From Planctomycetaceae bacterium (lineage in GTDB: Bacteria; Planctomycetota; Planctomycetia; Planctomycetales; Planctomycetaceae), in contig PBSL01000012.1 of the NCBI GenBank assembly GCA_002726205.1, forward strand, positions 1 through 62,165: a stretch of 62,165 nucleotides of DNA. The letters are read 5' to 3'. The position numbers and the translations under genes were made by a program. Below, piece by piece: positions 2 to 18,099 of this stretch. Under the pieces are notes generated by a model. The model worked only from the letters and a program-made list of their open reading frames with translations, searched no databases and was not told where the DNA came from. Position 1 is the first letter of the stretch. Each line of letters opens with the position of its first letter.

Positions 2-436
2 GCCTTTAGTCGTTGGGACTGGCACGGCAACAACTTCGGCCGCAGCCGGCAGGACTTTCCGATGCTCGACCAGGGCGTCAGCGCGCTGGTCGAGGATCTT
101 GAGTCCCGGGATCTGCTCGAGGATGTCACCGTGGTGGTCTGGGGAGAGTTCGGTCGCACGCCGAAGGTCAACAACAAGGCCGGTCGTGACCACTGGCCGC
201 GGGTCAGTTGTGCCCTGCTGGCTGGAGGTGGGATGCAGACAGGACAGGTGGTCGGTGCCACCAACCGGTTGGGCGAATTTGCCCAGAAGCGACCGGTGCA
301 CTTCCAGGATGTATTCGCGACGATGTACCACAACCTGGGCATCGATGTCGAAAACTGGACCGTCGAAGATCTGCAGGGGCGTCCTCGGTACCTGGTCGAC
401 AACGACCAGCACCGCGTGATGCCGGAACTGGTCTGA
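2..436 (+). CDS. DUF1501 family protein, C-terminal part (5' end outside window)
   Basis: The frame is open from base 2, so the start lies before the window. Visible residues begin with WDWHGNNF and continue through [19 protein letters not shown] and the closing GRPRYLV segment. These are the C-terminal signatures of DUF1501, a family related to the sulfatase/alkaline-phosphatase fold that is very abundant in planctomycetes. The two complete DUF1501 proteins in this window (25736 and 36017) show the same blocks. The usual partner in this phylum is a DUF1549/DUF1553 protein, which would have to lie upstream, outside the window. The function of the family is not established. The 145 visible residues are about a third of the normal 420-480. 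Confidence 0.9.
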
Positions 437-473
437 GTCGATACGTCGTTTGGGTCCGTGCGAGAACGGTGTG

Positions 474-1916
474 ATGGACGGCCCAGAGTTCTCGCACGTC
501 ACCGACATCACCCCCGCCCCGGTCGGCCTGCTGCGATTGTGGTTTGGCTTTCGTGCCGACGTGACCCGTGCCAAGTACGTGGCAACGGGAGTCGGCTTGA
601 TGATTGTCAAGTACGCTGTCGAGGCCGCGGCGTTGGGGTTGCTCAACGAGCGATTCCTGTCGCCCTTTGATTTTCTGAATCCGGTGTACTCGGTCCGCCA
701 GGAACTGGTTCGTGGTGCCCCGGAGTGGCTGGGCTGGGCCTGGTTCTTCTGGACGCTGCCGTTTCTGTGGATCGCTGTGACGATGACCGTGCGACGAGCG
801 GTCAATGCGGGGCGCTCGCCCTGGTTTTGTCTGCTGATCCTGGTGCCGATCGTCAACCTGGCCGCGATGCTGTTTCTGGCGATCGCACCCGGTCGCCAAC
901 GCTTCGAGTCCGTTCCGCAGCGTGACGAGGTCGCGGTCCCCGTCCAGAGTTTTCGCAGTGCCGTGCTGGGCGTTGTTGTGGGCCTGGGCATTGCGCTGAC
1001 GATGGTGGGCGTGAGCGTCTATGCGTTTGACACTTACGGCTCTTCGCTGTTTCTGGGCACTCCCGTGCTCATGGGAGCGGTTGCCTCGGTGATCTCCAAC
1101 TCGGTCGCACCACGAAAATACTCCTCGAGCATCAGCCTGGGCATGCTGACCGTTCTGCTTGCTGGTGCCGGGCTGTTGGCCTTCGCCCTCGAGGGGCTGA
1201 TCTGTATCGTGATGGCGGCACCGATAGCACTTCCTCTGGGAGGATTGGGAGGGGTCCTGGGCAAGATCATCGCCGAGGTCAGTGTGCGACCGATCCAGGG
1301 CACGATGGCCGCAATGATGTTCTTGCCGATCTGGGCCGGCGTCGAGGGCTTTGTCACGCCGGAGAGAGAATTCGTGGTGACGACTGCCGTGGAAATCGAT
1401 GCGGGCATCGACCGTGTCTGGAACGGCGTGATTCACTTTCCGGAACTGCAGAAACCCGATGAATGGTACTTCCGCTGGGGAATTGCCTGTCCGATGCGGG
1501 CCGAGATCGACGGCGTCGGCGTCGGTGCCGTGCGGCGCTGTATCTTCACGACGGGGACCTTCGTCGAACCAATCACCAGTTGGGACGAGCCCCATCGACT
1601 GGCGTTCGACGTGGTATCGCAACCGGCTCCGATGTTCGAGTTGACGCCCTACGCCGACGTTCATCCACCACATCTCGATGGTGGTTTACGCAGTACGCGG
1701 GGAGAATTCGTTCTCGAGGAAGTTTCGCCGGGCAAGACGCGTCTGCTTGGTCGAACCTGGTATCGGTTCGACATGTTCCCCCATACCTACTGGACGCTCT
1801 GGTCTGACCTGATGATCCATCGGATCCACAAACGGGTACTCGACCACGTCAAGTTTCATGCGGAAAGAAATCCGCCGGAACGCTCCGCGGTGATCCCGAC
1901 CGGGCCGCCGCGTTGA
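474..1916 (+). CDS. Membrane protein: DUF805-like transmembrane region with C-terminal SRPBCC-like domain
   Basis: About 480 residues. Residues 1-300 hold roughly seven hydrophobic segments. One stretch (RRAVNAGRSPWFCLLILVP) resembles the DUF805 core, where a short basic/Gly loop precedes a membrane helix. From about residue 300 to the end the protein is soluble: VVTTAVEIDAGIDRVWNGV starts a domain with the layout of SRPBCC/polyketide-cyclase proteins, in which a beta strand and a helix follow an xVW motif and a long C-terminal helix (IHRIHKRVLDHVKF) closes the fold. The ATG at 474 is preferred; the frame is also open to a TTG at 450. The 3' end overlaps the convergent exonuclease gene by 61 bases. 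No enzymatic residues are evident, so a lipid- or ligand-binding role is only a guess. Confidence 0.75.
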   Translation: MDGPEFSHVTDITPAPVGLLRLWFGFRADVTRAKYVATGVGLMIVKYAVEAAALGLLNERFLSPFDFLNPVYSVRQELVRGAPEWLGWAWFFWTLPFLWIAVTMTVRRAVNAGRSPWFCLLILVPIVNLAAMLFLAIAPGRQRFESVPQRDEVAVPVQSFRSAVLGVVVGLGIALTMVGVSVYAFDTYGSSLFLGTPVLMGAVASVISNSVAPRKYSSSISLGMLTVLLAGAGLLAFALEGLICIVMAAPIALPLGGLGGVLGKIIAEVSVRPIQGTMAAMMFLPIWAGVEGFVTPEREFVVTTAVEIDAGIDRVWNGVIHFPELQKPDEWYFRWGIACPMRAEIDGVGVGAVRRCIFTTGTFVEPITSWDEPHRLAFDVVSQPAPMFELTPYADVHPPHLDGGLRSTRGEFVLEEVSPGKTRLLGRTWYRFDMFPHTYWTLWSDLMIHRIHKRVLDHVKFHAERNPPERSAVIPTGPPR

Positions 1917-2479
1917 AGCAGCGTCGTGTAGAGTGTCGCGAGGTTTCGACAGTCGTCGATTCCGCGATGGTGGTGCCCGGCCAGAGTCAGGTCCAAATCT
2001 GTCAGCATCCGCGCCATTCCCGGTGCCCTGGAGCAGCCCTTGACGGAACAGAATGCGTGCTTGATGTTCTGCCAGCGCGTGTAGATCGGGCGAAGACTCG
2101 CGACTTCGGGCACGGCCGCTGAACATTGTGCGGGGAGCATCGTACCCAGGTCCCAGTCTCCGCAGGTGACAATCAAGGCGTTGGTCTCGTCCAGATCATG
2201 GCCGTCCAGCCAATCGTGATGACGTGCCAGGACCTCCGTGAAACTGTCTGCGGTTTCCACGTCGGATTGGCTGATCGAGGTGAGGTTTCTGCAGAACTCG
2301 GTCAGAACCGGGTGGTGTCGGGGGCGGACAAAAGACTGGAACTCGTCGACGATCTCGAAAGAACCCAGCGAGATGAGTACCGAGGGGAACTCGATGATCT
2401 CCTGCGGCCGTGGTTGGTTGCGGTCGTCGCAGGTCGCCTCGAAGTCCACGATCACGGCGAATGCGTATTCACAATCCAT
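1856..2479 (-). CDS. DEDDh 3'-5' exonuclease, ERI1/KapD-like
   Basis: A 207-residue DnaQ-fold exonuclease. Exo I is VIVDFEATCD near the N terminus, with Asp and Glu as metal ligands. Exo II is the TCGDWDL region in the middle. Exo III is HHHRGIDDCRN near residue 175, which supplies the catalytic His and last Asp of the DEDDh class. The ATCD spelling and the CGDWD block are typical of the ERI-1/KapD branch, which trims RNA 3' ends, rather than of DNA polymerase proofreading subunits. It is a lone domain without extra RNA-binding modules. The ATG at 2479 was chosen; a GTG at 2503 would add eight residues. It is divergent from the following HTH gene. The RNA substrate is inferred from the family. 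Confidence 0.85.
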   Translation of the reverse strand: MDCEYAFAVIVDFEATCDDRNQPRPQEIIEFPSVLISLGSFEIVDEFQSFVRPRHHPVLTEFCRNLTSISQSDVETADSFTEVLARHHDWLDGHDLDETNALIVTCGDWDLGTMLPAQCSAAVPEVASLRPIYTRWQNIKHAFCSVKGCSRAPGMARMLTDLDLTLAGHHHRGIDDCRNLATLYTTLLQRGGPVGITAERSGGFLSA

Positions 2480-2753
2480 GTTTGATTCGAGGCCTGTTAC
2501 CACTGGCTGTCGAGCACCCGGTTATTGCCGTGCAGGGGAAAACCTCTCGCACGGGGTACGATTGTGTGACGAGCTCAGCGTATCAACACCCGGGATCAAT
2601 CGCAAAACTCGGACGAGCGTCGACGGTTGGTCGGCAATCAATGACAGGCCGTCATGTCGGTTGATACCATCCGGGAGAAGCTCGGCGTAAGATCCGAAGA
2701 ATGTTGTCAGCCGCGTTGACTCGGGTGACCTGCAGAAAGGCGGTTGCGACACC

Positions 2754-3428
2754 ATGGCGAGTGATCAGCAGAGATTGAGCTACGAGCAGGCTGCCTTGCG
2801 ACTGGGCCTGTCGGAGGATCAACTCCGCGATCTGAAGAAGGCCCGCCGAATTCGTGATTACCCCGACTACGGGGGGTGGATGTTCAAGGCCGAGGAGATC
2901 GAAGCCCTGGCGCTTGAACTGGCCGCTGAGCAAGCCTTGCCAGCTGCCGATCAAACAGCAGACGGCGAAGCGAATCGCCTGTTCGGGACCGGAATCGATC
3001 GGCGGCCCTCGACGCCCTCGCCGGTTTCAGATGACCTGGTCGAAGCAGCTCAGGATCACCCGAATGAGGAAAAGAACGACGCCAGTGGTTCGGACGATGA
3101 CGCAGCCACGAAAGAGGAGCGAAAGGCCGAACAACGGGAGTGGAAGGCCTGGCGGAGAAAATGGCTGCTGCAGTGCCCCGTGGATCATCGCGGCCGATTC
3201 GGACACTTCATCAATCGCAATTTCCGGGATGACTACCGGAACACGACGACGAATCCCTGCGAGTTGTTCCTGGATCAACTCAAGGACACATCCAGCAGCC
3301 CAACCAGGGACAGTTCCGGCAGTGAAATGCGCGAAACGTCCGAGACTCTGTCCGTGTTGTCGAATTTCGGGTGTGTCGGGGCCATTGTGCTGTTTTTCGT
3401 CATTTGCTGGATTGCCTCGCTATTGTAG
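2754..3428 (+). CDS. Putative HTH protein with C-terminal membrane anchor
   Basis: 224 residues, function unknown. Residues 6-50 (LSYEQAALRLGLSEDQL, then RRIRDYPDYGGWMFKAEEI) look like an excisionase/MerR-type HTH module: helix-turn-helix, a short wing, then a helix. Residues 60-125 are polar and charged, probably disordered. Residues 125-190 contain WKAWRRKWLLQCP and a conserved-looking HRGRFGHFINRNF segment. The last 20 residues (VGAIVLFFVICWIASLL) are one hydrophobic helix, so the protein may be tail-anchored with the HTH in the cytoplasm. It follows a 250-base divergent gap that includes an imperfect dyad at 2637-2665. A membrane-bound regulator is one reading, but DNA binding is not shown by sequence alone. 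Confidence 0.6.
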   Translation: MASDQQRLSYEQAALRLGLSEDQLRDLKKARRIRDYPDYGGWMFKAEEIEALALELAAEQALPAADQTADGEANRLFGTGIDRRPSTPSPVSDDLVEAAQDHPNEEKNDASGSDDDAATKEERKAEQREWKAWRRKWLLQCPVDHRGRFGHFINRNFRDDYRNTTTNPCELFLDQLKDTSSSPTRDSSGSEMRETSETLSVLSNFGCVGAIVLFFVICWIASLL

Positions 3429-3488
3429 TGCTCGCAGTCCTGATCTCGCTCTTGTTGCAACTGATCCCCGCAGAAGGCCACGACAATC

Positions 3489-4394
3489 ATGCGAAAAGAA
3501 ACCGGAACAACCGTCGGTTGGGGACGTCGAGCCTTTCTGAAGGACGGGGCGCTGGTCCTGGCCGCCACCGCAGTGAGTCCCGCGTCATTGCTGAATGCTG
3601 AAGAAAAATCGGACTTGAAGGTCGGGCTGATCACCGACCTTCATTATGCCGACAAGGCTCCCTCAGGAACTCGCCACTACCGGGCGACTCCGGCCAAACT
3701 GGCTGAAGCTGCCGAGGAATTCGGCCGGCAGAAGCCGTCTTTCGTCGTGGAACTCGGCGATTTCATTGATGCGGCCGACTCGGTGAAAGCAGAGCTCGGC
3801 TACCTGAAGAGAATCAACCGGGATTTTTCAACGATCTGCAAGAACCGGCATCACGTGCTCGGCAATCACTGTGTTTACACGCTGAGGAAGCAGGAGTTCC
3901 TCGAAGGGGTTGGACAGAAGAAGTCGTATTACTCGTTTGACGTGGGGCGATTTCATTTCGTCGTGCTGGATTCGTGCTTCCGCAGTGATGGGGTGCCCTA
4001 CGGTCGGAAGAACTTCGAGTGGACCGATCCCAATATCCCCGCTGCTGAACTTGATTGGCTCCGGGCGGACCTGAAAGCCACGTCGAAGCAGACCGTCGTC
4101 TTTGCACACCAGCGGCTGGATGTCAGCACTCATTACGGTGTCAAGAACGGTGTCGCTGTCCGGAAAGTGCTTGAAGCGTCGAAGAAGGTCCTGGCCGTCT
4201 TTCAGGGGCACAGCCATGTGAATGACCACAAGGACATTGCAGGCATCCATTACTGCACACTGGTCGCGATGATCGAGGGCCCCGGACCCGAGAACAACGG
4301 TTACTCGCTGATGAGCCTCGCCGACGACGGAACGATCCGTATCAAGGGCTTCCGAAAGCAAAGTCCCTACCAATGGCGACCGGGAGTCGGCTGA
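3489..4394 (+). CDS. Tat-exported calcineurin-like metallophosphoesterase
   Basis: 301 residues. The N terminus has a twin-arginine leader (GRRAFLKDGALVLAATAV), so the folded enzyme is probably exported with its metals bound. All dinuclear-metal motifs are present: DLH at 50-52, GDF at 90-92, GNH at 125-127, FAHQR in the middle and GHSH near residue 240. Such enzymes hydrolyse phosphomonoesters or phosphodiesters; the substrate cannot be inferred here. The gene begins 60 bases after the HTH/anchor gene on the same strand, which may mean a shared transcript. The convergent DUF3500-like gene ends 60 bases downstream. Confidence 0.88.
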   Translation: MRKETGTTVGWGRRAFLKDGALVLAATAVSPASLLNAEEKSDLKVGLITDLHYADKAPSGTRHYRATPAKLAEAAEEFGRQKPSFVVELGDFIDAADSVKAELGYLKRINRDFSTICKNRHHVLGNHCVYTLRKQEFLEGVGQKKSYYSFDVGRFHFVVLDSCFRSDGVPYGRKNFEWTDPNIPAAELDWLRADLKATSKQTVVFAHQRLDVSTHYGVKNGVAVRKVLEASKKVLAVFQGHSHVNDHKDIAGIHYCTLVAMIEGPGPENNGYSLMSLADDGTIRIKGFRKQSPYQWRPGVG

Positions 4395-4454
4395 GTGCCC
4401 TGCCCTGCCCGGTGCCGGTTGTCACAACGATGAGGTCCCGGCTCAGCGGAAGCG

Positions 4455-5492
4455 TCAGGCCGGTTTGCGGATGTGGACCCAGGTGTGCACGTGCGGTTTG
4501 CCGCGGAAGTACCAGACCATGGCCGGCCCTTCGATCTGCCAGACATCCCACACGCGGTCATTGCCGATGTCCATGTTCTGGTAATAAGCGAAGTGCAGTT
4601 TGTCGAACTGGGCCTCGACCAACTTCATGCACTCGTCCACGTCGACCTTTCGAAACGGGGCCAGGACATCGGCGATCACCTTGCGGGCCAGGTTCTTTTG
4701 GTCGTCGCTGAAATCCGCAACCGGAACACCGTGGGGGGCTACGTTCCTGGCGTGGAACTGGACCGTCTTTTTCTTCTGTTCGGGTCGGGCGTCGTTGCGG
4801 AGAGCGAGTTTTCTTTGCTTGCCATCCAGTGCCTGGAACAAGGCGTTGGCGCGTTTGGCCTGGTACCAGTAAATGTTGCCGGGGTGCCCGGGCTTTTCGT
4901 TGAAGCCTCCCGCGGCATGGCCGTAGAAGATCGGCCCGCCAAACGCGGCTCCTTTGACCGAGTCGCCGTCACATCGTCGGGTCACGTGTCGGCCGGAGAA
5001 CACGAACTCGAATTTGCCCGATCCGGGCTGACCAAACAGGGCAACCGAGCAACCGTCGAATCCGCGTCGTCGATTCGCCTGCCGATTGTCGCTCTCGACC
5101 TGGGTCAACACCTTTCCAGAGAATTTCTCGCTGTGCAGGCTCTTGAAGATGTCGCGGATCATCGCCTGCTGGTCCTTGGAGAAATCCGTGCCGACGGTGG
5201 CCTTGGTGATGTTCCAGTTGTTGTTGACCGCCTGGCGGAGTGGATGGCCGAAGGGAAACGTCATGATCTTCTTCTGCGGCTCGGTCAACGTCTTGTAGAA
5301 GTGACCGACGAGCGTTTCCGGGGTCGGCTTTTTTGCCGCCTCGGCCGCCTCGGCCGCCTTGACCGTCGCGGGAGAAAGTGGAGGCGACAACGCCGACGCC
5401 GTGACAATTCCGGCGGTCGTCGTTTCCAGGAACTTGCGACGCGTCAGTTCAGCGGGACGGGAAGAATCAGCGTGTTGTGGCTGTCCAAGCAT
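4455..5492 (-). CDS. DUF3500-like exported protein
   Basis: 345 residues with a Tat-type leader (LTRRKFLETTTAGIVTASAL) at about 16-36. The mature part resembles the DUF3500 family: a helical start built around LTEPQKK and MTFPFGHPLR, a central FVFSGRHVTRRCDGD segment, then FGGPIFYGH. The C-terminal half has the HFAYYQNMDI and GPAMVWYFRG segments expected of that family. The biochemical role of DUF3500 is unknown. The start is the ATG at 5492, which follows an AGAGAG stretch. The opposite strand is also open through this whole gene, in frame with the downstream esterase, but that reading has no family features. Confidence 0.65.
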   Translation of the reverse strand: MLGQPQHADSSRPAELTRRKFLETTTAGIVTASALSPPLSPATVKAAEAAEAAKKPTPETLVGHFYKTLTEPQKKIMTFPFGHPLRQAVNNNWNITKATVGTDFSKDQQAMIRDIFKSLHSEKFSGKVLTQVESDNRQANRRRGFDGCSVALFGQPGSGKFEFVFSGRHVTRRCDGDSVKGAAFGGPIFYGHAAGGFNEKPGHPGNIYWYQAKRANALFQALDGKQRKLALRNDARPEQKKKTVQFHARNVAPHGVPVADFSDDQKNLARKVIADVLAPFRKVDVDECMKLVEAQFDKLHFAYYQNMDIGNDRVWDVWQIEGPAMVWYFRGKPHVHTWVHIRKPA

Positions 5493-9665: not shown

Positions 9666-12600
9666 CTACTTCAGTTCTTCACTTGTCTTGCCACCGTGCT
9701 TGCGGAGCATCTCGGCGATTCCCGGCCGGGCCGACTTCAATTCTTCCATGTCCACCTTGATCTTCAGGACATTGGCGGTGAACTGGGTGCCCCGCTGGAG
9801 TGCTTCGGTCCAGTCCGAGGCAACCGATTCCAGCGGGGTCTCTCCGTCGTCGTTCTTTGTGTTGACGTTGGCCTTGTGCTTGATCAACAGCGCCACGATC
9901 TCGACGCGTCCCAGAAAAGCGGCAGCGTGCAGGGGTGTGTTGCCTTCCTTGTTCGTCGCGTTGACCTGGGCTCCCTGTTCGATCAGGAATTCGGCGGCCC
10001 GAGTGTGGCCGGCCAACGCGGCCCAGCCCAGCGGTGTGATTCCACGTTCATCGGAGCCGTTCACGTCAGCCTTCTTGGCCAGGTGCTGCTTGAGAGCGTC
10101 GAGATTTCCGGACCTGGCGGCATTCCAGATGTTGTCGGCCTTCGCCTTGGCCAGGTCGTCGGCCGTTTTGCCTCCGTTGCCTCGCAGGAATGCCGCCACG
10201 GCGGGTCGACCGGCTTTCACGGTTCCCAGGTCGATCGGGATCTGCAATCCGTCGATAATCGCGTCCTTGATGAACTTCGCCAGCTCGGGGGTCCAGCGAT
10301 CCGAGGCAATATCCAGCGGGGTCTCTCCCTCCTTGTTCCTGGCATTCACGGCGGCGCCATTCTTGAGGAGTGTTTTTACGACGCCAACGCGTCCCAGGAA
10401 TGCCGCTGCGTGCAAGGCGGCATTGCCATCATCATTGACCGCGTTGACCTCGGCCCCCTTGCTGAGCAGGAATTCCAGGACCTTGTCCTTTCCCGCCAGG
10501 GTGGCCAGAGAGAGGGGAGTTCCCTGGGGACCCCGTGCGTTGACATCGGTGCCCTTGCCCAGGTGGCCCGCCACGGCCCGTAGGTCGCCCGTCTTGGCTG
10601 CGAGCCAGATCGTGTTGGTTGCGGGTTTTCTTCCGGCGTTCTTCTTGCCGCGTCCGGCATTCTTCTTGCCGCGTCCGGCGTTGCGAGCTCGCGGGTTGCC
10701 TCTTCTTTGTCCGGCGGGCGCCTGCAACTGTGGCGGTGGGCCCGCTGCGGCCGTCCAGATCGGCATCCCGTCGGCGGTTTCCTTTTCGATATCCGCACGC
10801 CGGGTATTGATGAAGTGGCGTAGTCCGGCGAGTTTCCCCGGCATGGCCCGGACCTGTGAGGGAGCGAGGTCGCCGGGCTTGAGCATGGCTTCAATCCGGT
10901 GGGTTTCGGCAATCAGCCGTTCCTCGTTCCAGTGTTCGGCCATGATCTGCTTGAGTGTCTTGAGGTAACGCTCGCGCACAGACTTGATCTGGTAGAGCTT
11001 GTGGGCCACACGTCCCATTGTCTTGACCGAGACCGGGGCGCGGGGATCAACTCTCAGCCGGCTCCTCTTCTCGAACATGCAGTCACCACCCCAGGGCAGG
11101 AAGTGAAACTTGCCCGAATAGGGATTGAGGTAGATGAAGAAATTGTTCCTGTTGGCGGTGTATCCGTCCCAGAAGCCGAGCAATCCCTCGACGGCCCAGA
11201 ACCTGTAGAACGCATCCAGGTCGACCAGTTCACCGATGGCCTGTTCCATGTTGATTTCGTTGGTCTGGATCTCGGCGAGAATCAGCATGTCGGTGCTGGC
11301 TGGTGCGACATTGAGTCCGTGGATGGCGAGTACGTTTTTCCCCTTGCGGAACTTGTCTCGGTGCTCGGAGATGTTGAAAGCCTCGAACTCCTTGGCCTGG
11401 GGGTCGTCGTGTCCGCCGGTGGCCCTGGAATTCCAGCGGATGGGCTTTGGTGAGTTGGCCGAGGCGATCCGGTGACCGTTGAGATAGGCCACGAAGCCGT
11501 CGTCGTATTTCATCTTCAGGATGAGATCGCCGCGGATCGCCGCGGGGTCCTCGAGTTCGAACGGGAACCGCAGGTACACCGACGCGCTCTTCTCGAACAT
11601 GTCGGCCTGGAAGTCAAAAGGCTCGCTGATGAGCGATTCAAACCCCTCTCCCTTTTCGTAGCCCGCACCGTTGCGACCGGCCGTCCAGTTGGAATCGTCG
11701 AAGTCCAGGGCCGTCCAGTGTTCGTAGTGCTGTCCGGCCAGGGTGGACAGTTCGTCGCGGATCGGCTGCAGCGACGGAGCGATGGCGAGGTAGTAATCGG
11801 TGAGAACCTTCTCCTGGTCCTTGTTGCGATCACCGGCCGGGACCTTCAATGCTGCCAGTACCGGTGGTGGAAACGACTTCTGCAAGGGCCGGAAAAAGAG
11901 TCCTGATGTTCCCCCGCTGTTGATGATCTTCATCAGGATCCGGTTCTCGCCGGCCACCAGATTCAGTTCTGTCCTGTCCGTCGCCGGCATCACCCCGCGG
12001 AGTTCCTTCTTCTCGAACTGGAGCTTGCCGTTGAGCCACAGCTTGATGCCGTCGTCGCTGCCGAGCATGACCGGCAATTTCCTGGCGGTTGGCGAGTTGA
12101 CCGTGCGGAACAGGTAGGTTGCCGAAAAAGGCTGAGGGCTGAGCGGAAACGGCCGACCGTCGACGATTCTTTTGACTTCGACCCATCGTAGCGGCCCGCC
12201 CCTGCGGTTCCCGGCACGTTTGCCGTCCTTGGACTTCTTGCCGTCCTTGGACTTCTTGCCGTCCTTGGACTTCTTGCCGTCCTCGATCTTCTTGCCGTCC
12301 CTGGTGTAGATCTGGGCCAGATCCACCTTGGTCTCTGGTGGGAAGGCGTGCTTGAACGCTTCGTCGAAACTTGTCGTCTGGAACGGGCCGATTACCGACC
12401 ACGGCGAAAGCGAAACGCTTTGGTTGGTGTTTTCGGCTTCCCATTTCTTCTGTGCCGCGGCCAATTCCGGCGTCACCGTTGCCAGGGTCTTTCTGAGGCT
12501 GGCGATGCGATCCTCGAGAGCCTTCAACGCCGCGTCGTTGGTTGCGCCGGGATACACGGCCCTGTTCCCTCTGCCGTCCTCGCCGTTGCCGGTCGGTACC

Positions 12601-13427
12601 CAGCCGCGTCCCATCGTCTGTGAATCCAGGATCGTGGTGCCGCTGATTTCACCTTGCAGGACCTCGATGAGCTGTTTGATCTTGGGGCGGGCGAGCCTGT
12701 CCTTGCCGATCTTCCTCTCGAAACTGCCTTCCCAGCCTGCAAAGAAGTCGGTGACCGTTCCTTCGTAGACGGTTCCCCGGTCGTCTCCGAATCCACGACG
12801 CAGTAGCGGCTTGAGGACGGGTTCCACGTGCGAGTAAATACCGAGATTCTTGCCGTTGACGGTCAGCCTGGCCAGGGCGCATCGCGGAGCGGGCGAACCG
12901 ACGGCGTTGAAGAGCGCATACCCCATGAACTGGCTCATCTGGCTGGTGTCTTGATTGTTGTTGTTGAAGGTCAGGGTGCTCTGCCCTCCCAGTTGTGCCT
13001 TCTTGTCGACGTGGTTCAGCTTGATCTTCAGCGAGGGTCGACTGGAGTTCTGGGAGCCGATGAATCCCTTCTTGCGGAGTCCGACATCGGGAAACTCGAT
13101 TCCGTCAATTGTCACCGTGGCGTTCACGTAGACGTAGGGACCCTTGACGGGTTTTTCTTTGCGACCGGCCTGCAAAGCCTCGTAGAAATTGCGAGTCTGC
13201 TTCCGGATCTTGTCCCAGTCCTCTTCGGCAACGGTGATCTGCACATCCAGCACCCGGTCGGTCGGAAACAGATCGACGACGGTCTCTTTCTCGATGGCGG
13301 CGATTCCCAGGGCTGCCGCAACACAGAGACCCGAGACAAGCAGCAGCGGAACCAGGAAACGAAGGCCGCTGATCAACATCGCGCTGAGAGGCGGGTTCGA
13401 GTTTCGACGCGGGGGCGTGGGAGGCAT
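9666..13427 (-). CDS. CotH kinase family protein with inserted beta domains and C-terminal ankyrin repeats
   Basis: 1253 residues. A membrane/signal segment lies at 18-45. The first part of the CotH fold runs about 50-260, with VGLRKKGF and VNGKNLGIYSHVEP. The second part is at about 728-850, with FWDGYTANRNNFFIY and FHFLPWGGD, which replaces the usual PWDxD. Between them are about 450 residues: a coiled segment, a WSVIGPF module, a lysine-rich repeat (376-403) and a DSNWTAGRNGAGY beta module. Residues 900-935 are basic linker. From 936 on, ankyrin repeats form two homologous blocks of about 155 residues. CotH proteins are secreted protein kinases in spores and other systems; activity here is inferred. 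It is the last gene of the CotH/VTC/DUF4956 cluster. Confidence 0.85.
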   Translation of the reverse strand: MPPTPPRRNSNPPLSAMLISGLRFLVPLLLVSGLCVAAALGIAAIEKETVVDLFPTDRVLDVQITVAEEDWDKIRKQTRNFYEALQAGRKEKPVKGPYVYVNATVTIDGIEFPDVGLRKKGFIGSQNSSRPSLKIKLNHVDKKAQLGGQSTLTFNNNNQDTSQMSQFMGYALFNAVGSPAPRCALARLTVNGKNLGIYSHVEPVLKPLLRRGFGDDRGTVYEGTVTDFFAGWEGSFERKIGKDRLARPKIKQLIEVLQGEISGTTILDSQTMGRGWVPTGNGEDGRGNRAVYPGATNDAALKALEDRIASLRKTLATVTPELAAAQKKWEAENTNQSVSLSPWSVIGPFQTTSFDEAFKHAFPPETKVDLAQIYTRDGKKIEDGKKSKDGKKSKDGKKSKDGKRAGNRRGGPLRWVEVKRIVDGRPFPLSPQPFSATYLFRTVNSPTARKLPVMLGSDDGIKLWLNGKLQFEKKELRGVMPATDRTELNLVAGENRILMKIINSGGTSGLFFRPLQKSFPPPVLAALKVPAGDRNKDQEKVLTDYYLAIAPSLQPIRDELSTLAGQHYEHWTALDFDDSNWTAGRNGAGYEKGEGFESLISEPFDFQADMFEKSASVYLRFPFELEDPAAIRGDLILKMKYDDGFVAYLNGHRIASANSPKPIRWNSRATGGHDDPQAKEFEAFNISEHRDKFRKGKNVLAIHGLNVAPASTDMLILAEIQTNEINMEQAIGELVDLDAFYRFWAVEGLLGFWDGYTANRNNFFIYLNPYSGKFHFLPWGGDCMFEKRSRLRVDPRAPVSVKTMGRVAHKLYQIKSVRERYLKTLKQIMAEHWNEERLIAETHRIEAMLKPGDLAPSQVRAMPGKLAGLRHFINTRRADIEKETADGMPIWTAAAGPPPQLQAPAGQRRGNPRARNAGRGKKNAGRGKKNAGRKPATNTIWLAAKTGDLRAVAGHLGKGTDVNARGPQGTPLSLATLAGKDKVLEFLLSKGAEVNAVNDDGNAALHAAAFLGRVGVVKTLLKNGAAVNARNKEGETPLDIASDRWTPELAKFIKDAIIDGLQIPIDLGTVKAGRPAVAAFLRGNGGKTADDLAKAKADNIWNAARSGNLDALKQHLAKKADVNGSDERGITPLGWAALAGHTRAAEFLIEQGAQVNATNKEGNTPLHAAAFLGRVEIVALLIKHKANVNTKNDDGETPLESVASDWTEALQRGTQFTANVLKIKVDMEELKSARPGIAEMLRKHGGKTSEELK
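12225..12296 (-). repeat. Four 18-base tandem units inside the ankyrin-CotH gene
   Basis: Three exact copies and one variant copy of an 18-base unit encode the DGKKSK-type hexapeptide repeat at about residues 378-401. The repeat sits in the linker between inserted beta modules. Such repeats can change copy number by slippage without shifting the frame. Confidence 0.85.
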
Positions 13428-13598: not shown

Positions 13599-16058
13599 TT
13601 ATTTCGATTCAGGGCGCCGATTGGCTTTGCCCGGAGATGGCTGCATCGCTCGCCAGTTTCCCTGGCCGTCGGGGGATTGGCCGAGTGCGGTTTCGGAGGC
13701 CTGCCGGCCAAACTCGACCTGGTCGAGGATGGTACTTCCCTTCGAGAAAAACACGGTCTCGCCATTTCGCGAGAGCCGGAAGTTGGCGTGCAGGCCCCGG
13801 GTCGACCTGTTTTTCTTGTCGGCCCAGATCACCAGGAAGCCTCTCGCCGGAATGACGGTGTCCTTGGGAAACGACCACTTGTCGAGCGAGTTCCTGGAAT
13901 CGCTCAGAGAAAAACCCGAGAGGTTCACGGCGCGGTCACCGCGATTGAACAACTCGATCCAGTCCTCGAAGTTTCCCTCGGGATCGGCAACGGTTCGATC
14001 GTTGGCAGCCATGATCTCGTTGATCACCACGGCCGATCGACTGCGGGAGCGACCGTTGGGAAGCGGTGATGCATCGGCCCCTTGCCGCGACCGGGCCGAC
14101 CGTGTGTCGCGAGGCAAGGAGGCAATTTCCGGATGTTGCAGCAGAAACTGGCGACGTCGTTCGATGAAACCTCGCAACGTCAGTCGTCCTCGTCCTCGCC
14201 CGTTCTCCGGGCCCGGTTCGTCAGCCATTGCAGCGAGAAATGCTTCGAAGGGGTCCAGTTTTCGCGTGTCGGCCTTGATCTCTTTTTCGATCAACGAACG
14301 GCATCCCTGCACGACCGGTCCAAGTGTTTTCCAGTCGAGCGATGTTGCGGCGATCGTCCGGACATTCTCCAGGTATCTTCGTCTCAGGTTTGGGACCGCC
14401 AGGACCTTGCTGCGCAGTGCCATGCGGGGATCATCGATCGAAACCAGTGGGTCCAGTTCGATACCGTCGCCATCCCCGGGTCCTTCGGGACCTCCGGGAG
14501 GACCGGAAAAGCCACGATCGCGGCGGTCCCCACCGGGGCGAGGAAGATCACCGTCGGCAGTTCCATTTCCGCGACGAGCATCTCGGGGTCCGCGGTCGGG
14601 GAGGTCGCGTGACCGGCCTCCGGGAAAGTCGCCGGGGGGACCGAATCCGCGTCGAGGGCGAGAGCCGCCTGGTCGCCGGTGAGGTGTTCGAAACGCCTCG
14701 TTCATGTCGTAGGCAATAATGTGGAACCGGCCGCGAACGTCCTGGAAGATGCTGTAATCGCTGGCACGGGTCCAGTACCCGTCGTTGTTGATCAGGACCA
14801 CGTCGAAGGCGAGAAACCAGAGCAGTTCATCGACGTCGAGAATCGGCCGCAGGGCCTGTTCCAGTTGCGCCGGCGGTGTCTGTTCGAGCGTGCGGCAGAG
14901 CGAGATCAATGCCTGCCAGGATTCGGGGCGATCCTTGGACTTGATCTCGTAGCGCTGGCGATAATCGGCAACGTTCTCGCCGAGGTATCTCATTCCTCCG
15001 TCCGCCCGGGGGCTGCCATTGACCTTCCAGCGGGCGCCCTGGGCCGAACCAAAATGTTCGGCAACGAACTCCTTGTTGAATTGCTGGGTATTGGCATAGA
15101 TGCCCCAGCTTCTTCCATTGATCACGACCTTGACGAAGTTGGCCTTGGGAACGGGCATCCTGGTCTCAGCCAGGTGAGAATACAGCACCGTGCTCATCAT
15201 CGTGGGGTCGCCCATGCTGTTGAGCAGGTTGAGTGTCTTGTAGCCGTAGAGTCGTTGCTTGCGGTTGACGAAATCCAGCGAGAGGTTCAGCGAACGTTTG
15301 TAGCCGGCCGAAACAGCACGGTAAGACGAATTGCCGCGAAATCGAACTCCGACGTCGGGATAACGCTTTCCGTCGACGGTCAGCGTGGCGGTCACCTCGA
15401 CATCGGTATCCTTGAAGTCGGCCAATTCCTCTTCCCAGTCCTTGTTCTCGAATTCCAGGAACAGGGTCCGCAGAACAGTGCGATCGTAGAGCGGTGCGTC
15501 GGGAATGGGTTTGACTTCCGCGGGGGACACCTTCTGGCCCGGCGTGGCCGGGGGGCGGTTGTTCAACGGGCCACGTCCACCGGGAGGTCCAAACCTCCGC
15601 CGGCCTCCGCGGCCGCTTCTCTGCTGGGTGGCGAGCCAGTCCCTGGCTGCCCGACGTTCCCCGGCGTCGAGTCGCTTGTCCTTGTTCTTGTCGAACTGCT
15701 TGACGAGTTTCAGTTTCTCCCGCGAGGGGCCGCCGGGACGACCGGGGCCGCCGGGAGGGGCCAGTTCGTCGGCGGTGATCTGTCCGTCACCGTTGCGGTC
15801 GAGTTTCTTGATGATCGCCGGTGCGTTCCTGATCTCGTCGTTACTGATCTCGCCGTCCCGGTTGGTGTCGAGAATGTCCAGGATGGGAGAGATCGGAGGA
15901 CGACCACCGGGACCTGGAAACCCGCGGTCGAAACCACGGGGCGCGAATGGGTCCCGGCGAGGATCGTCGGGGCGTTGGGCTTTTAGCGACGGCGGGGAGG
16001 ATTGGACCAGGGCCAGGGTGATCGTGCCCACCAGCGCGGCCATCACTACTTGTCGCAT
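13599..16058 (-). CDS. CotH kinase family protein with EF-hands and lamin-tail domain
   Basis: 819 residues. A signal peptide covers about 1-24. Two canonical EF-hand loops (DTNRDGEISNDE at 64-75, DRNGDGQITADE at 87-98) and a third, shorter one near 123 suggest calcium binding. The CotH domain covers about 195-590, with FRGNSSYR, VINGRSWGIY, NNDGYWTRASDY and IIAYDMNE, the last being the counterpart of the catalytic PWDxD motif. Within it, a Gly/Arg/Pro-rich insert sits at 460-530. A lamin-tail domain (VVINEIMAAN, then WIELFNRGDRAVNLSG) spans about 677-785. It stands 31 bases after the VTC-type gene and 171 bases before the ankyrin-CotH gene. The likely location is outside the cytoplasmic membrane. 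Confidence 0.88.
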   Translation of the reverse strand: MRQVVMAALVGTITLALVQSSPPSLKAQRPDDPRRDPFAPRGFDRGFPGPGGRPPISPILDILDTNRDGEISNDEIRNAPAIIKKLDRNGDGQITADELAPPGGPGRPGGPSREKLKLVKQFDKNKDKRLDAGERRAARDWLATQQRSGRGGRRRFGPPGGRGPLNNRPPATPGQKVSPAEVKPIPDAPLYDRTVLRTLFLEFENKDWEEELADFKDTDVEVTATLTVDGKRYPDVGVRFRGNSSYRAVSAGYKRSLNLSLDFVNRKQRLYGYKTLNLLNSMGDPTMMSTVLYSHLAETRMPVPKANFVKVVINGRSWGIYANTQQFNKEFVAEHFGSAQGARWKVNGSPRADGGMRYLGENVADYRQRYEIKSKDRPESWQALISLCRTLEQTPPAQLEQALRPILDVDELLWFLAFDVVLINNDGYWTRASDYSIFQDVRGRFHIIAYDMNEAFRTPHRRPGGSRPRRGFGPPGDFPGGRSRDLPDRGPRDARRGNGTADGDLPRPGGDRRDRGFSGPPGGPEGPGDGDGIELDPLVSIDDPRMALRSKVLAVPNLRRRYLENVRTIAATSLDWKTLGPVVQGCRSLIEKEIKADTRKLDPFEAFLAAMADEPGPENGRGRGRLTLRGFIERRRQFLLQHPEIASLPRDTRSARSRQGADASPLPNGRSRSRSAVVINEIMAANDRTVADPEGNFEDWIELFNRGDRAVNLSGFSLSDSRNSLDKWSFPKDTVIPARGFLVIWADKKNRSTRGLHANFRLSRNGETVFFSKGSTILDQVEFGRQASETALGQSPDGQGNWRAMQPSPGKANRRPESK

Positions 16059-16089: not shown

Positions 16090-16872
16090 CTAGAAGCTCA
16101 TCGGCAGCAGGCCCAGCAGATGGCAGCCGTGAACGTACTTCGAGAATGGGGCGATGCGCGGTGACAGGGGGTGCAGGAGGTTCTTGAGATCCTGTTCGCA
16201 GCCGACCGGGAACTTGCCTTCCAGGACGACCACGTTGGGCAGGCGATAAGGGAACGCGGTGGAGATATGGCGTTTTCCCGTCTGGTCGTAAAAGGCGAGG
16301 TCGTAATCCAGTGTCGCCCGCAGGTTGGCCTCGCGGGATTCGAAGTGCTCCCGCTTGTACTCGACGATCACGATCGGTTCATTGCTTGGCAACAGCTCAC
16401 CGACGAAGGACGCAGGCAAAACGCCAAGCAACTCGTCGACGATCTGCCGGTAAGGCAAGTCGGTGATCGGCTGTTGGGCCTGCAACTGCAGCCGGTGCTT
16501 GCCGGTGATCCGGTTGTTACGCCACTTGATCTCGAAAAACAGGTCCTGGCCGGGGGCCAGAGAATCATACCACCGCAGCCGGACCTTCTTTCGCCGGCTG
16601 ACTCCGTCGATGTTGGCCCGACAGGCCGAGAGCTGGACATCGTCGAAGTAGATACTGCGGACGGTCGAAACAGGCTTGTTGTGGACCAGCCGGCGGCCAC
16701 TCCCGTTGAGAAGTCCACGCAGCTTGGCGACATCACCACAGGGGAAGACGTACTTGACTTCCCGGCGCGATGCGAGATCGGTTCGCACCACATCGTCTTC
16801 GACGACACGAAACGCCGCTTTCGGGGGTTCAAGAACCTCCGGAGCCGGGCGGATTTCATTCTCGCTGACCAT
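16090..16872 (-). CDS. VTC-domain polyphosphate polymerase-like protein
   Basis: 260 residues from the ATG at 16872; the open frame upstream overlaps the DUF4956 gene and was not used. The fold is that of the VTC tunnel domain. RREVKYVFP starts the barrel, and basic residues recur through the strands in STVRSIYFDD, RRKKVRLRWYD, FEIKWRNN and IVEYKREHF. In yeast Vtc4 this domain makes polyphosphate from ATP. Bacterial copies commonly neighbour CotH and DUF4956 genes, as here. No SPX domain is present. Its gene starts 14 bases after the DUF4956 stop, indicating one transcript. Polyphosphate synthesis is inferred from family; some bacterial homologues may bind other phosphorylated ligands. Confidence 0.85.
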   Translation of the reverse strand: MVSENEIRPAPEVLEPPKAAFRVVEDDVVRTDLASRREVKYVFPCGDVAKLRGLLNGSGRRLVHNKPVSTVRSIYFDDVQLSACRANIDGVSRRKKVRLRWYDSLAPGQDLFFEIKWRNNRITGKHRLQLQAQQPITDLPYRQIVDELLGVLPASFVGELLPSNEPIVIVEYKREHFESREANLRATLDYDLAFYDQTGKRHISTAFPYRLPNVVVLEGKFPVGCEQDLKNLLHPLSPRIAPFSKYVHGCHLLGLLPMSF

Positions 16873-16886
16873 GGGCACTCCGATGC

Positions 16887-17606
16887 CTACAGCGTCGATT
16901 CCAGGTTGACGTAAGAGAACTCGCACCCGGGCAGTCGCTCACGCAGGCGGGCAATCAATGCCGAGGTGTCTTTGCCGCTGTGACGGTTGAGCACGATCCT
17001 GACCTGGCCACGGTTTTCCTCGATGTCGAATCGTTGCAGGGTGTAGCGACCGGCCAACTCGTCGACGACCGACAACACGCTGGTCTCCTCTTCATTGAAA
17101 TGCTGCTGCGAATCGCCGGTGATGGTCAACAGCAGACTTTGCCGACGCTTGTTTCCCGTGGTGAAATGGACCCCGAGAACAAACACGGTGACCACGACAA
17201 CCAGCGCCACCGCCAGCAGGGGTTGCGATGCTCCCAGTGCGAGGCCGACCCCGATGCACAGGAAGAGGTAAACCAGTTCTTCGGGTTCCTTGATCGCCGC
17301 CCGGAACCTGACGATCGACAGGGCGCCGACCAGTCCCAGCGACAGGGCCAGCGAAGACTTGACGACGGCGATCACGCCGATGGTCACCATCGTCAGCGCG
17401 GGGAAAATCCGGGCCACCGAATCAGCATCCGAAAGCGAGGAGTTGCACCGGCGATAAAGGAACCGGATGTACAGGGCCAGCAGGCCACCAATCAGCAGAT
17501 AGACCGCGATCGTCAGAACCGAGGTGTTTTCCGCGATGGAAATCGACGACTGCAGCTCTTTCCAGGTGAGTTCAGACCAGGCTGCGGGGGCGGGTTCCGG
17601 GTTCAT
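16887..17606 (-). CDS. DUF4956 membrane protein
   Basis: 239 residues from the ATG at 17606. Four or five hydrophobic segments occupy about 25-150. The signature LGLVGALSIVRFRAAIKEP at about 100-120 is characteristic of DUF4956. A soluble C-terminal domain (about 155-239) contains LTITGDSQQH and ends in a strand-rich segment, reminiscent of small regulatory domains. DUF4956 proteins are regularly encoded beside VTC-type polymerases and may anchor or regulate them at the membrane. The role is not proven. It is the first gene of the four-gene minus-strand cluster. The frame runs upstream to 17699, but those residues are not family-like. Confidence 0.82.
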   Translation of the reverse strand: MNPEPAPAAWSELTWKELQSSISIAENTSVLTIAVYLLIGGLLALYIRFLYRRCNSSLSDADSVARIFPALTMVTIGVIAVVKSSLALSLGLVGALSIVRFRAAIKEPEELVYLFLCIGVGLALGASQPLLAVALVVVVTVFVLGVHFTTGNKRRQSLLLTITGDSQQHFNEEETSVLSVVDELAGRYTLQRFDIEENRGQVRIVLNRHSGKDTSALIARLRERLPGCEFSYVNLESTL

Positions 17607-18099
17607 ATCGTTTGCTCTCGTAGTAGTTGTCTGCTCAAAGGCGTGGAGCTCTACCCACCGTTGGGTGCCAGCAACAAGCCGCTCGTGCACAATCGGCAAC
17701 CGGTTTCACCGGCTGACCGTGGGATCTACTGGTTATCGCCGAAATCTCAATCTGTCAACAATACGCAGGTTGTCTACGTTCGTACACAATGGAAGGCGAT
17801 TCTGCGAAAAAAAAGTGGCGACCGCGAGTGAATCAGGGGTCATACGGCTAAGAATCGCAAATTCTGACCGTGTTCACGTTTTCGATGCCGGGGAACAATC
17901 ACGCGACCTGGCAACCTCTGGCCAGCTGAGAGGCGCGAACGGATTGCATGGTTAATCCACCGCGTTGCGGGGAAATGGACATGGTTTTCCGGTCATTTCT
18001 GATCTCGATGGCGAACGGAAACAAAAGCAGAGTGAGTAGCAGGCCGATATGAAGAACCACGCGGTTTAACAGATTCGCGAGGAAGTTGCCGTCCCGCTT
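17607..18099. other. 493-base gap without a convincing gene
   Basis: This stretch lies between the DUF4956 start and the end of the glycosidase-like gene, both on the minus strand. Short open frames exist on the plus strand but lack any family feature. Apart from the weak promoter candidate at 17732-17758, no RNA gene or strong hairpin was seen. Confidence 0.5.
17732..17758 (-). promoter_or_regulatory. Candidate promoter for the DUF4956-VTC-CotH cluster
   Basis: On the minus strand a perfect TTGACA (17758-17753) is followed after 15 bases by GATAAC (17737-17732), about 125 bases before the DUF4956 start. The spacer is short, and the -10 element matches only four of six positions, so this is a weak call. 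Confidence 0.3.

Follow-up and report, generated by a model that had tools for sequence, protein, structure and literature searches.

A planctomycete CotH kinase-like protein interrupted by two inserted modules of different age, with a putatively rearranged active site conserved across its branch

The gene P0001 lies on the minus strand of a 62,165-nucleotide stretch of contig PBSL01000012.1 (assembly GCA_002726205.1, a Planctomycetaceae bacterium), the whole of which we call the window. It encodes a CotH kinase-like protein whose kinase-like domain is interrupted by two modules, here A and B, and followed by ankyrin repeats. On balance, and with modest confidence, we favour the explanation that P0001 is one probably exported CotH fold in which an older insertion, B, was joined by a captured one, A, that its active site is rearranged in a way common to a whole branch of CotH proteins, and that a neighbouring VTC gene is its partner. 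The protein offers a datable case in which a kinase-like fold took up a further domain while genes of the likely donor family persist in the same genome, and it belongs to a large CotH branch with a consistently rearranged site for which the question "dead or relocated?" is testable by a few point changes. To our knowledge bacterial kinase-like proteins that act outside the cell are few and poorly understood.

P0001 is a single open frame with no internal stops that ends exactly at 9666 and 13427. Its features are:

9666-13427, minus strand: P0001, whole gene, 1253 amino acids; export segment, CotH-N, A, B, CotH-C, linker and ankyrin repeats
13293..13427, minus strand: N-terminal hydrophobic segment, residues 1-45, read from the sequence; probable signal peptide or anchor
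12573..13292, minus strand: CotH N-terminal piece (CotH-N), residues 46-285, from profile matches; predicted local distance difference test score (pLDDT) mostly 70-94 in the model
11721..12566, minus strand: module A, residues 288-569, two helical arms flanking a WSVIGPF...DDGIKLWLNG module
12220..12304, minus strand: 18-bp tandem repeat, 4.7 copies, encoding the Lys-rich (KKSKDG)n loop within module A
11265..11717, minus strand: module B, residues 571-721, GH2-like jelly roll by predicted fold
10713..11264, minus strand: CotH C-terminal piece (CotH-C), residues 722-905, from Pfam, clade profiles and model
10632..10682, minus strand: 21-bp repeat, 2.4 copies, in a Gly/Lys/Arg/Asn linker ahead of the ankyrins
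9669..10613, minus strand: ankyrin region, residues 939-1253, six repeats in two groups of three

The Pfam CotH family (PF08757) matches P0001 in two stretches with 95.2 bits, above its curated cut-off of 23.8; the best stretch, residues 124-224, covers profile positions 7-109, and in a genome search the second piece covered positions 152-287. Domain borders were drawn with clade-specific profiles built from three close relatives and the window protein; these profiles cover A at 288-568, B at 571-720 and CotH-C at 722-904. A first-pass annotation of this DNA had proposed a CotH domain split into halves at 50-260 and 728-850 by about 450 residues; the split stands, with pieces at 46-285 and 722-905 and 436 residues between them (285 to 722). 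The long hydrophobic run at the N-terminus suggests that the protein is probably exported. Ankyrin repeats are evident from an Ank_2 score of 117.6 bits (cut-off 27.3), with matches to other ankyrin Pfam models, and the clade profiles resolve them into groups of three at 939-1034 and 1097-1195. NCBIfam gave mainly ankyrin-bearing models, every one under its cut-off. The 4.86-Mb draft genome of the organism (G000) contains only two Ank_2 matches, both within P0001.

The spacer between the CotH pieces consists of two separate insertions, B being the older and A the younger, since three relatives found in a genome scan (L036, matched over 28-1253; L037, over 49-1247; and L038, without ankyrins) have B and no A while P0001 and locus L199, from another genus (G547), have both. 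The inserts had earlier been described as modules seen in other planctomycete secreted proteins, which proved right, except that they differ in age and origin and did not arrive as one block. L199 also carries the ankyrin repeats and thus reproduces the complete layout, with identities to P0001 of 74% in CotH-N, 56% in A, 75% in B, 77% in CotH-C and 53% in the ankyrin region. A is therefore rejected as an oddity of the window.

The origin of A can be followed further. Elsewhere in the same genome, on another contig, a PSCyt1-PSCyt2-PSD1 gene encodes, between PSCyt2 and PSD1, a module 47% identical to that of P0001 over its length. We collected copies of A from ten genomes and built a tree of 30 distinct copies, in which the three CotH-borne copies form one clade (support 99/93; found in 96% of 200 bootstrap trees). 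This clade lies within a seven-row clade (99/97) shared with copies from G000, G547, G548 and G549, and all four of those hosts are PSCyt/PSD1 (DUF1549/DUF1553) proteins by Pfam; of the other 27 copies, 5 hosts were run through Pfam. Because the CotH-borne copies are one clade and group with PSCyt/PSD1-borne ones, A was apparently captured once, to judge from the sequences, its source being a PSCyt/PSD1 gene within this lineage. The direction from PSD1 to CotH is read from the wide spread of PSD1-type copies, with the root taken to lie outside the CotH branch. On the simplest history, an ancestor shared by two genera received in its CotH gene one copy of a PSD1-protein segment together with the helical arms. 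As to its kind, the A core of the window has one Pfam match, to PA14 (E 0.073; 13.3 bits, cut-off 24), and other A rows have weak matches to PA14, rhamnosidase-D2 and GH2-N, the best at E 0.00087. A sequence profile of A compared with solved structures at E <= 0.01 found a single match, 6qe7 (RsgI3), at E 0.00068. The Lys-rich repeat reported earlier in the spacer is an 18-bp unit that has expanded within a loop of A; since neither L199 nor the PSD1 paralogue has it, we rejected it as a domain. Some frames at L240, L245, L253 and L020 contain two consecutive copies of A.

Module B resembles, by its predicted fold, the jelly roll of GH2 enzymes. In an AlphaFold model of the orthologue L037 (model 2, below) B has pLDDT values of 79-95 and matches 6d50 (Z 12.5; root-mean-square deviation, rmsd, 3.0 over 137 residues; range 215..486) and 8q2h (Z 12.1 over 138 residues; range 214..394). 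By sequence, Pfam found no family in the B of the window at E up to 1, the GH2 sugar-binding family PF02837 included, and a B profile had no match among solved structures at E <= 0.01. A and B were also compared as possible halves of one duplicated module, an idea not supported at an hhalign probability of 5.3%, though DDGxxxxLNG-like stretches of the two align. On another contig of the same genome (C37), the frame 1451-5218 at locus L115 has B (residues 201-336) after a partial LTD domain (76-156, profile positions 6-74 of 109), and the stretch after B reads like the remainder of that domain. L115 thus suggests that B has been inserted into host folds of more than one kind. Both modules probably bind glycan or surface partners, and the ankyrin repeats would bind protein.

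The distribution of these layouts was examined with the CotH-N profile, which gave 69 matching at 1e-12 among 392 genomes of the phylum and 68 matching among 170 of the family. The architecture set comprised 30 listed loci at E <= 2.2e-48 (window excluded), together with L036-L038 and the window. CotH occurs alone at 15 loci (in L212 CotH-N spans two frames), with ankyrins and no B at 2 (L201, L204), with B and no ankyrins at 4 (L183, L184, L189, L038), with B and ankyrins at 7 (L036, L037, L185, L186, L188, the second frame of L200, and L202; L185 and L186 are cut and the B match is partial in L200 and L202) and with A, B and ankyrins at 2 (the window and L199). At L187 and L194, which meet a contig end, CotH-N is the only piece present. 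L203 (CotH-N with an internal run of N, then A, cut) and the first frame of L200 (B, CotH-C and ankyrins, cut) are probably one G549 gene lying on two contigs. That cut frame of L200 is directly followed by the second CotH-B-ankyrin gene, as a tandem pair. At L209 CotH-N and CotH-C lie in different frames, likely through a frameshift or an assembly error.

In a tree of the CotH columns (30 rows), all 15 rows with B or ankyrins form one clade (100/99), within which B is present in 13/15 and ankyrins in 11/15. The first-pass annotation had called ankyrin repeats on an exported kinase-like protein unusual; the repeats of P0001 are confirmed, and CotH followed by ankyrins is a recurring architecture. 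P0001 pairs with L199 at 95/85 (75% identity), and L204, which has no B, groups at 100/99 with the B-bearing L200 and L202. We take this as a clean loss of B, the one step in the gain and loss of B and ankyrins that the tree allows us to order. L036, recorded as Verrucomicrobiales, stands beside the group of the window (85/62), which may reflect transfer or a mislabelled bin.

The second part of our reading concerns the active site. In PMC7821199 the substitutions D228Q and D251A are reported to inactivate CotH. A profile alignment to the Bacillus cereus CotH structure 5jd9 maps the Asp of FDGF and the first Asp of PWDYD, which stand 23 residues apart; this spacing equals that from D228 to D251, with which we would equate the two. 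Among CotH rows (150 distinct strings, of which 116 are readable; overlapping loci may enter one gene twice) the D251 position holds Gly in 58/116, and in 58/58 of these an Asp stands two residues on. The other 58/116 have Asp at that position, followed two residues on by Asp in 28, Glu in 20, Asn in 9 and His in 1; of the 28, 3 carry Glu where D228 would stand. We refer to the two kinds as G-type and D-type. P0001 is G-type, and the positions concerned are:

11166..11168, minus strand: codon of D754 (WDGY, residues 753-756), equivalent of CotH D228 by profile alignment to 5jd9
11082..11090, minus strand: codons of G780-G781-D782 (PWGGD = 778-782), with G780 at the D251 position and D782 two on
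13020..13082, minus strand: residues 116-136, with K120 of RxKG and R130-P131 where D-type rows have KK

The first-pass annotation had remarked on PWGGD in place of PWDxD and had asked after the catalytic Asp residues. The D228 position is kept and the D251 position is indeed changed, but not by a decay private to P0001: PWGxD occurs in 32/32 readable near relatives, a 33rd row (L194) being cut, and the D228-position Asp is kept in the same 32/32. In a tree of 112 CotH rows (55 G-type and 57 D-type; contained duplicates removed and the columns of these positions masked) there is one change between the types, on a weakly supported branch, which speaks for a single event kept by many rows and not for repeated covariation. 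In counts on rows that were not de-duplicated, the D228 equivalent, the NN motif and the second Asp are each present in 83/83 across the G-type branch. The Lys of RxKG is present in 55/55 G-type and 16/16 split rows, and the 43 D-type rows include R in 16, H in 13, K in 10 and Q in 3. Conversely, the first Lys of KKS is kept in 43/44 D-type rows, and at its position G-type rows have Arg in 44, Lys in 7 and other residues in 4 of 55, and split rows Arg in 15 and His in 1 of 16; the position of the second Lys is Pro in 55/55 G-type and 16/16 split rows. We read PWGGD as the conserved, rearranged active site of the whole branch. The Asp would have moved two places from the D251 position, the Lys perhaps from one strand (KKS) to another (RxKG), and the CotH core would act as a phosphotransfer-type enzyme of the cell envelope.

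With Gly at the D251 position P0001 is not classed as an active CotH kinase of the Bacillus type, and the same data can be taken to mean that the G-type branch lost phosphotransfer and survives as a conserved pseudokinase, a nucleotide-sensing or structural scaffold that displays A, B and the ankyrins. The replacement of the D251-position Asp in every G-type row, the Arg in place of the first Lys of KKS in 44/55 of them and the large added modules, which suit a scaffold, make this a substantial possibility, although one to which we give less than even weight. The loss at D251 points to a pseudokinase, and the strict conservation of the D228 equivalent, NN, the second Asp and the RxKG Lys, unusual for a dead site, points to a working, rearranged one; we put activity slightly ahead.

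What such a site might act on is suggested by the neighbouring genes. Upstream of P0001 lie:

13599..16058, minus strand: protein with EF-hand, CotH (D-type, AYDMN) and LTD domains, by Pfam
16090..16926, minus strand: VTC-domain protein, by Pfam
16887..17699, minus strand: DUF4956 protein, by Pfam

VTC, DUF4956 and CotH genes form a recurring group, and an adjacency test for it found both partner genes in the window and in G549 and VTC only in G547, at a contig start. In the window the second CotH gene (EF-hand/CotH/LTD) stands between P0001 and the VTC and DUF4956 genes, all on the same strand; in G549 the CotH-A gene directly follows VTC and DUF4956 with no second CotH. The end of a VTC gene occupies positions 2-556 of the contig in G547, the CotH frame starting at 606 on the same strand, and the end of a DUF4956 gene lies beside the other CotH copy of that genome, L202, on the opposite strand. 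VTC and CotH genes of G548 are both at contig starts, which fits adjacency without demonstrating it. VTC was found in 10/11 genomes searched (none in G441). The linkage holds for three genomes of one family and is claimed here for this lineage only, in which P0001 probably works with the neighbouring VTC (polyphosphate-type) gene. Ankyrin proteins with lipoprotein-like starts are encoded near the CotH-A-ankyrin genes of G549 (L213, 3734-6013, plus strand) and G547 (L199, 3790-5769, plus strand); by eye, the spacer between their repeat groups resembles that of the CotH tail.

These neighbours invite the suggestion of a different transfer chemistry, in which the site handles polyphosphate or a nucleotide monophosphate and not phosphoproteins. 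It would agree with VTC upstream in the window, G549 and G547 and DUF4956 in the window and G549, with the concerted change of the active site and with the lack of ATP outside the cell. We consider it unlikely nonetheless, since what speaks for it is gene neighbourhood and the site change, and since the D-type CotH of the window has the same neighbours, so that the linkage is not specific to the G-type site. Equally speculative, and in our view improbable as a whole, is a more far-reaching version in which, throughout a branch of exported CotH enzymes, the metal-binding Asp was displaced by two residues and the phosphate-binding Lys came to lie on the next strand, much as in WNK kinases. These enzymes would remain active on a new donor or substrate linked to polyphosphate at the cell envelope, and would be targeted by ready-made inserts that shuttle among unrelated secreted planctomycete proteins (LTD, CotH and PSCyt/PSD1).

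Our preferred reading of a rearranged site within one CotH fold supposes that the two halves come together in spite of the inserts, and this is what structure prediction, the check proposed at the outset, indicates. In an AlphaFold model of residues 46-905 (model 1; mean pLDDT 57, predicted template modelling score, pTM, 0.51), CotH-N and most CotH-C helices are confident, and both halves align together onto 5jd9 (VIA Z 32.2, rmsd 2.9 A, 335/358 residues, model range 13..844). The next structural matches, HipA and CtkA, follow at about Z 11, and with model 1 Foldseek gave 5jd9 and 5jda as the only matches at E <= 0.001. Model 2, of L037, which has B but lacks A (mean pLDDT 67.5, pTM 0.56), aligns with 5jd9 at Z 18.9 (rmsd 3.9 A, 294/358 residues). 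The CotH halves are thus predicted to fold together, both models being of middling confidence. The chain would leave the kinase fold after the helix 'PKIKQLIEVLQG', pass through A and then B, and rejoin it at the helix 'LDAFYRFWAVEGLL', from which that fold is completed ahead of the six ankyrin repeats; A and B would project from a turn on the surface of the C-lobe and leave the active site undisturbed.

The long spacer and its poor prediction in model 1 could be taken as signs that the inserts split the kinase into two separate domains, but this is very unlikely given the joint alignment of the halves in both models and CotH rows without inserts, in which CotH-N runs straight into CotH-C. Least probable of all is an artefact, be it a fusion of two genes, read-through of a pseudogene or a chimeric assembly: the domain order is unusual and A is 47% identical to that of a second gene of the same genome, yet chance, read-through and two-gene fusion are rejected, as far as sequence can show, on the one open frame, an even GC content at third codon positions (0.77-0.82 over the segments) and relatives in other assemblies with identical domain order, among them L199 of another genus at 74-77% identity in the CotH pieces, and copies without A, or without A and B, retain the order of CotH.

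Several points weigh against the explanation that we favour, of one exported CotH fold with an older B, a captured A, a rearranged site and a VTC partner. In model 1 most of A is below 50 pLDDT (helical arms 46-66) and B is at 34-71, and the alignment behind it (A6) places 26-27 residues of each of 11 distant rows in B (alignment A10 was built without distant CotH rows); in model 2 some of the N-lobe falls below 50. Our direction for the A transfer presupposes an A tree rooted elsewhere than on the CotH-borne branch, and glycan binding is suggested by likeness of fold only. At the site, the Asp that is essential in CotH at the D251 position is replaced by Gly, the shift of the Lys is put forward from sequence, and the branch separating the G and D types has a support of 16 and is not starred. 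Finally, six genomes of other families have VTC on contigs other than that of the CotH gene, some of them short, and no VTC or DUF4956 was present in the extra flanks L214, L215 and L216 (G441, G121 and G239).

Among known systems the closest is the Bacillus CotH kinase (5jd9/5jda; PF08757), with which P0001 shares a homologous domain, a predicted fold (Z 32.2 over 335/358) and the D228-type Asp; P0001 differs in its D251 position, which is Gly and followed two residues on by Asp, in the two inserted modules, in its probable export and ankyrin repeats and in having no spore coat setting. B is found as well in LTD/CotH proteins of Verrucomicrobia and Planctomycetes, before or after CotH in the listed frames; the CotH sites read in such proteins are D-type, whereas P0001 is G-type. 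The PSCyt1-PSCyt2-PSD1 proteins share A with its helical arms (47% identity in the same genome), placed between PSCyt2 and PSD1, and have no CotH match. In WNK kinases the catalytic Lys is relocated to the neighbouring strand; that family is unrelated, and a comparable shift in CotH is suggested by sequence comparison. Protein kinase-like (PKL) kinases with large inserts, such as Legionella Lmor_1975 and FAM69/DIPK with its EF-hand insert, have helical or EF-hand inserts according to PMC9758233, whereas P0001 has two added modules, one of traceable origin. The accessible portion of PMC8250860 describes an SH3-CotH protein and no VTC, and CotH is not mentioned in PMC7948968 and PMC10870513. Among the listed open-licence titles and abstract openings touching CotH with ankyrin, DUF1553, VTC or DUF4956, none describes the architecture of P0001. 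Set beside these systems, P0001 is a real and unusual protein: its CotH domain is ordinary, its traceable insertion sets it apart, and it may prove important for the conserved rearranged site of its whole branch.

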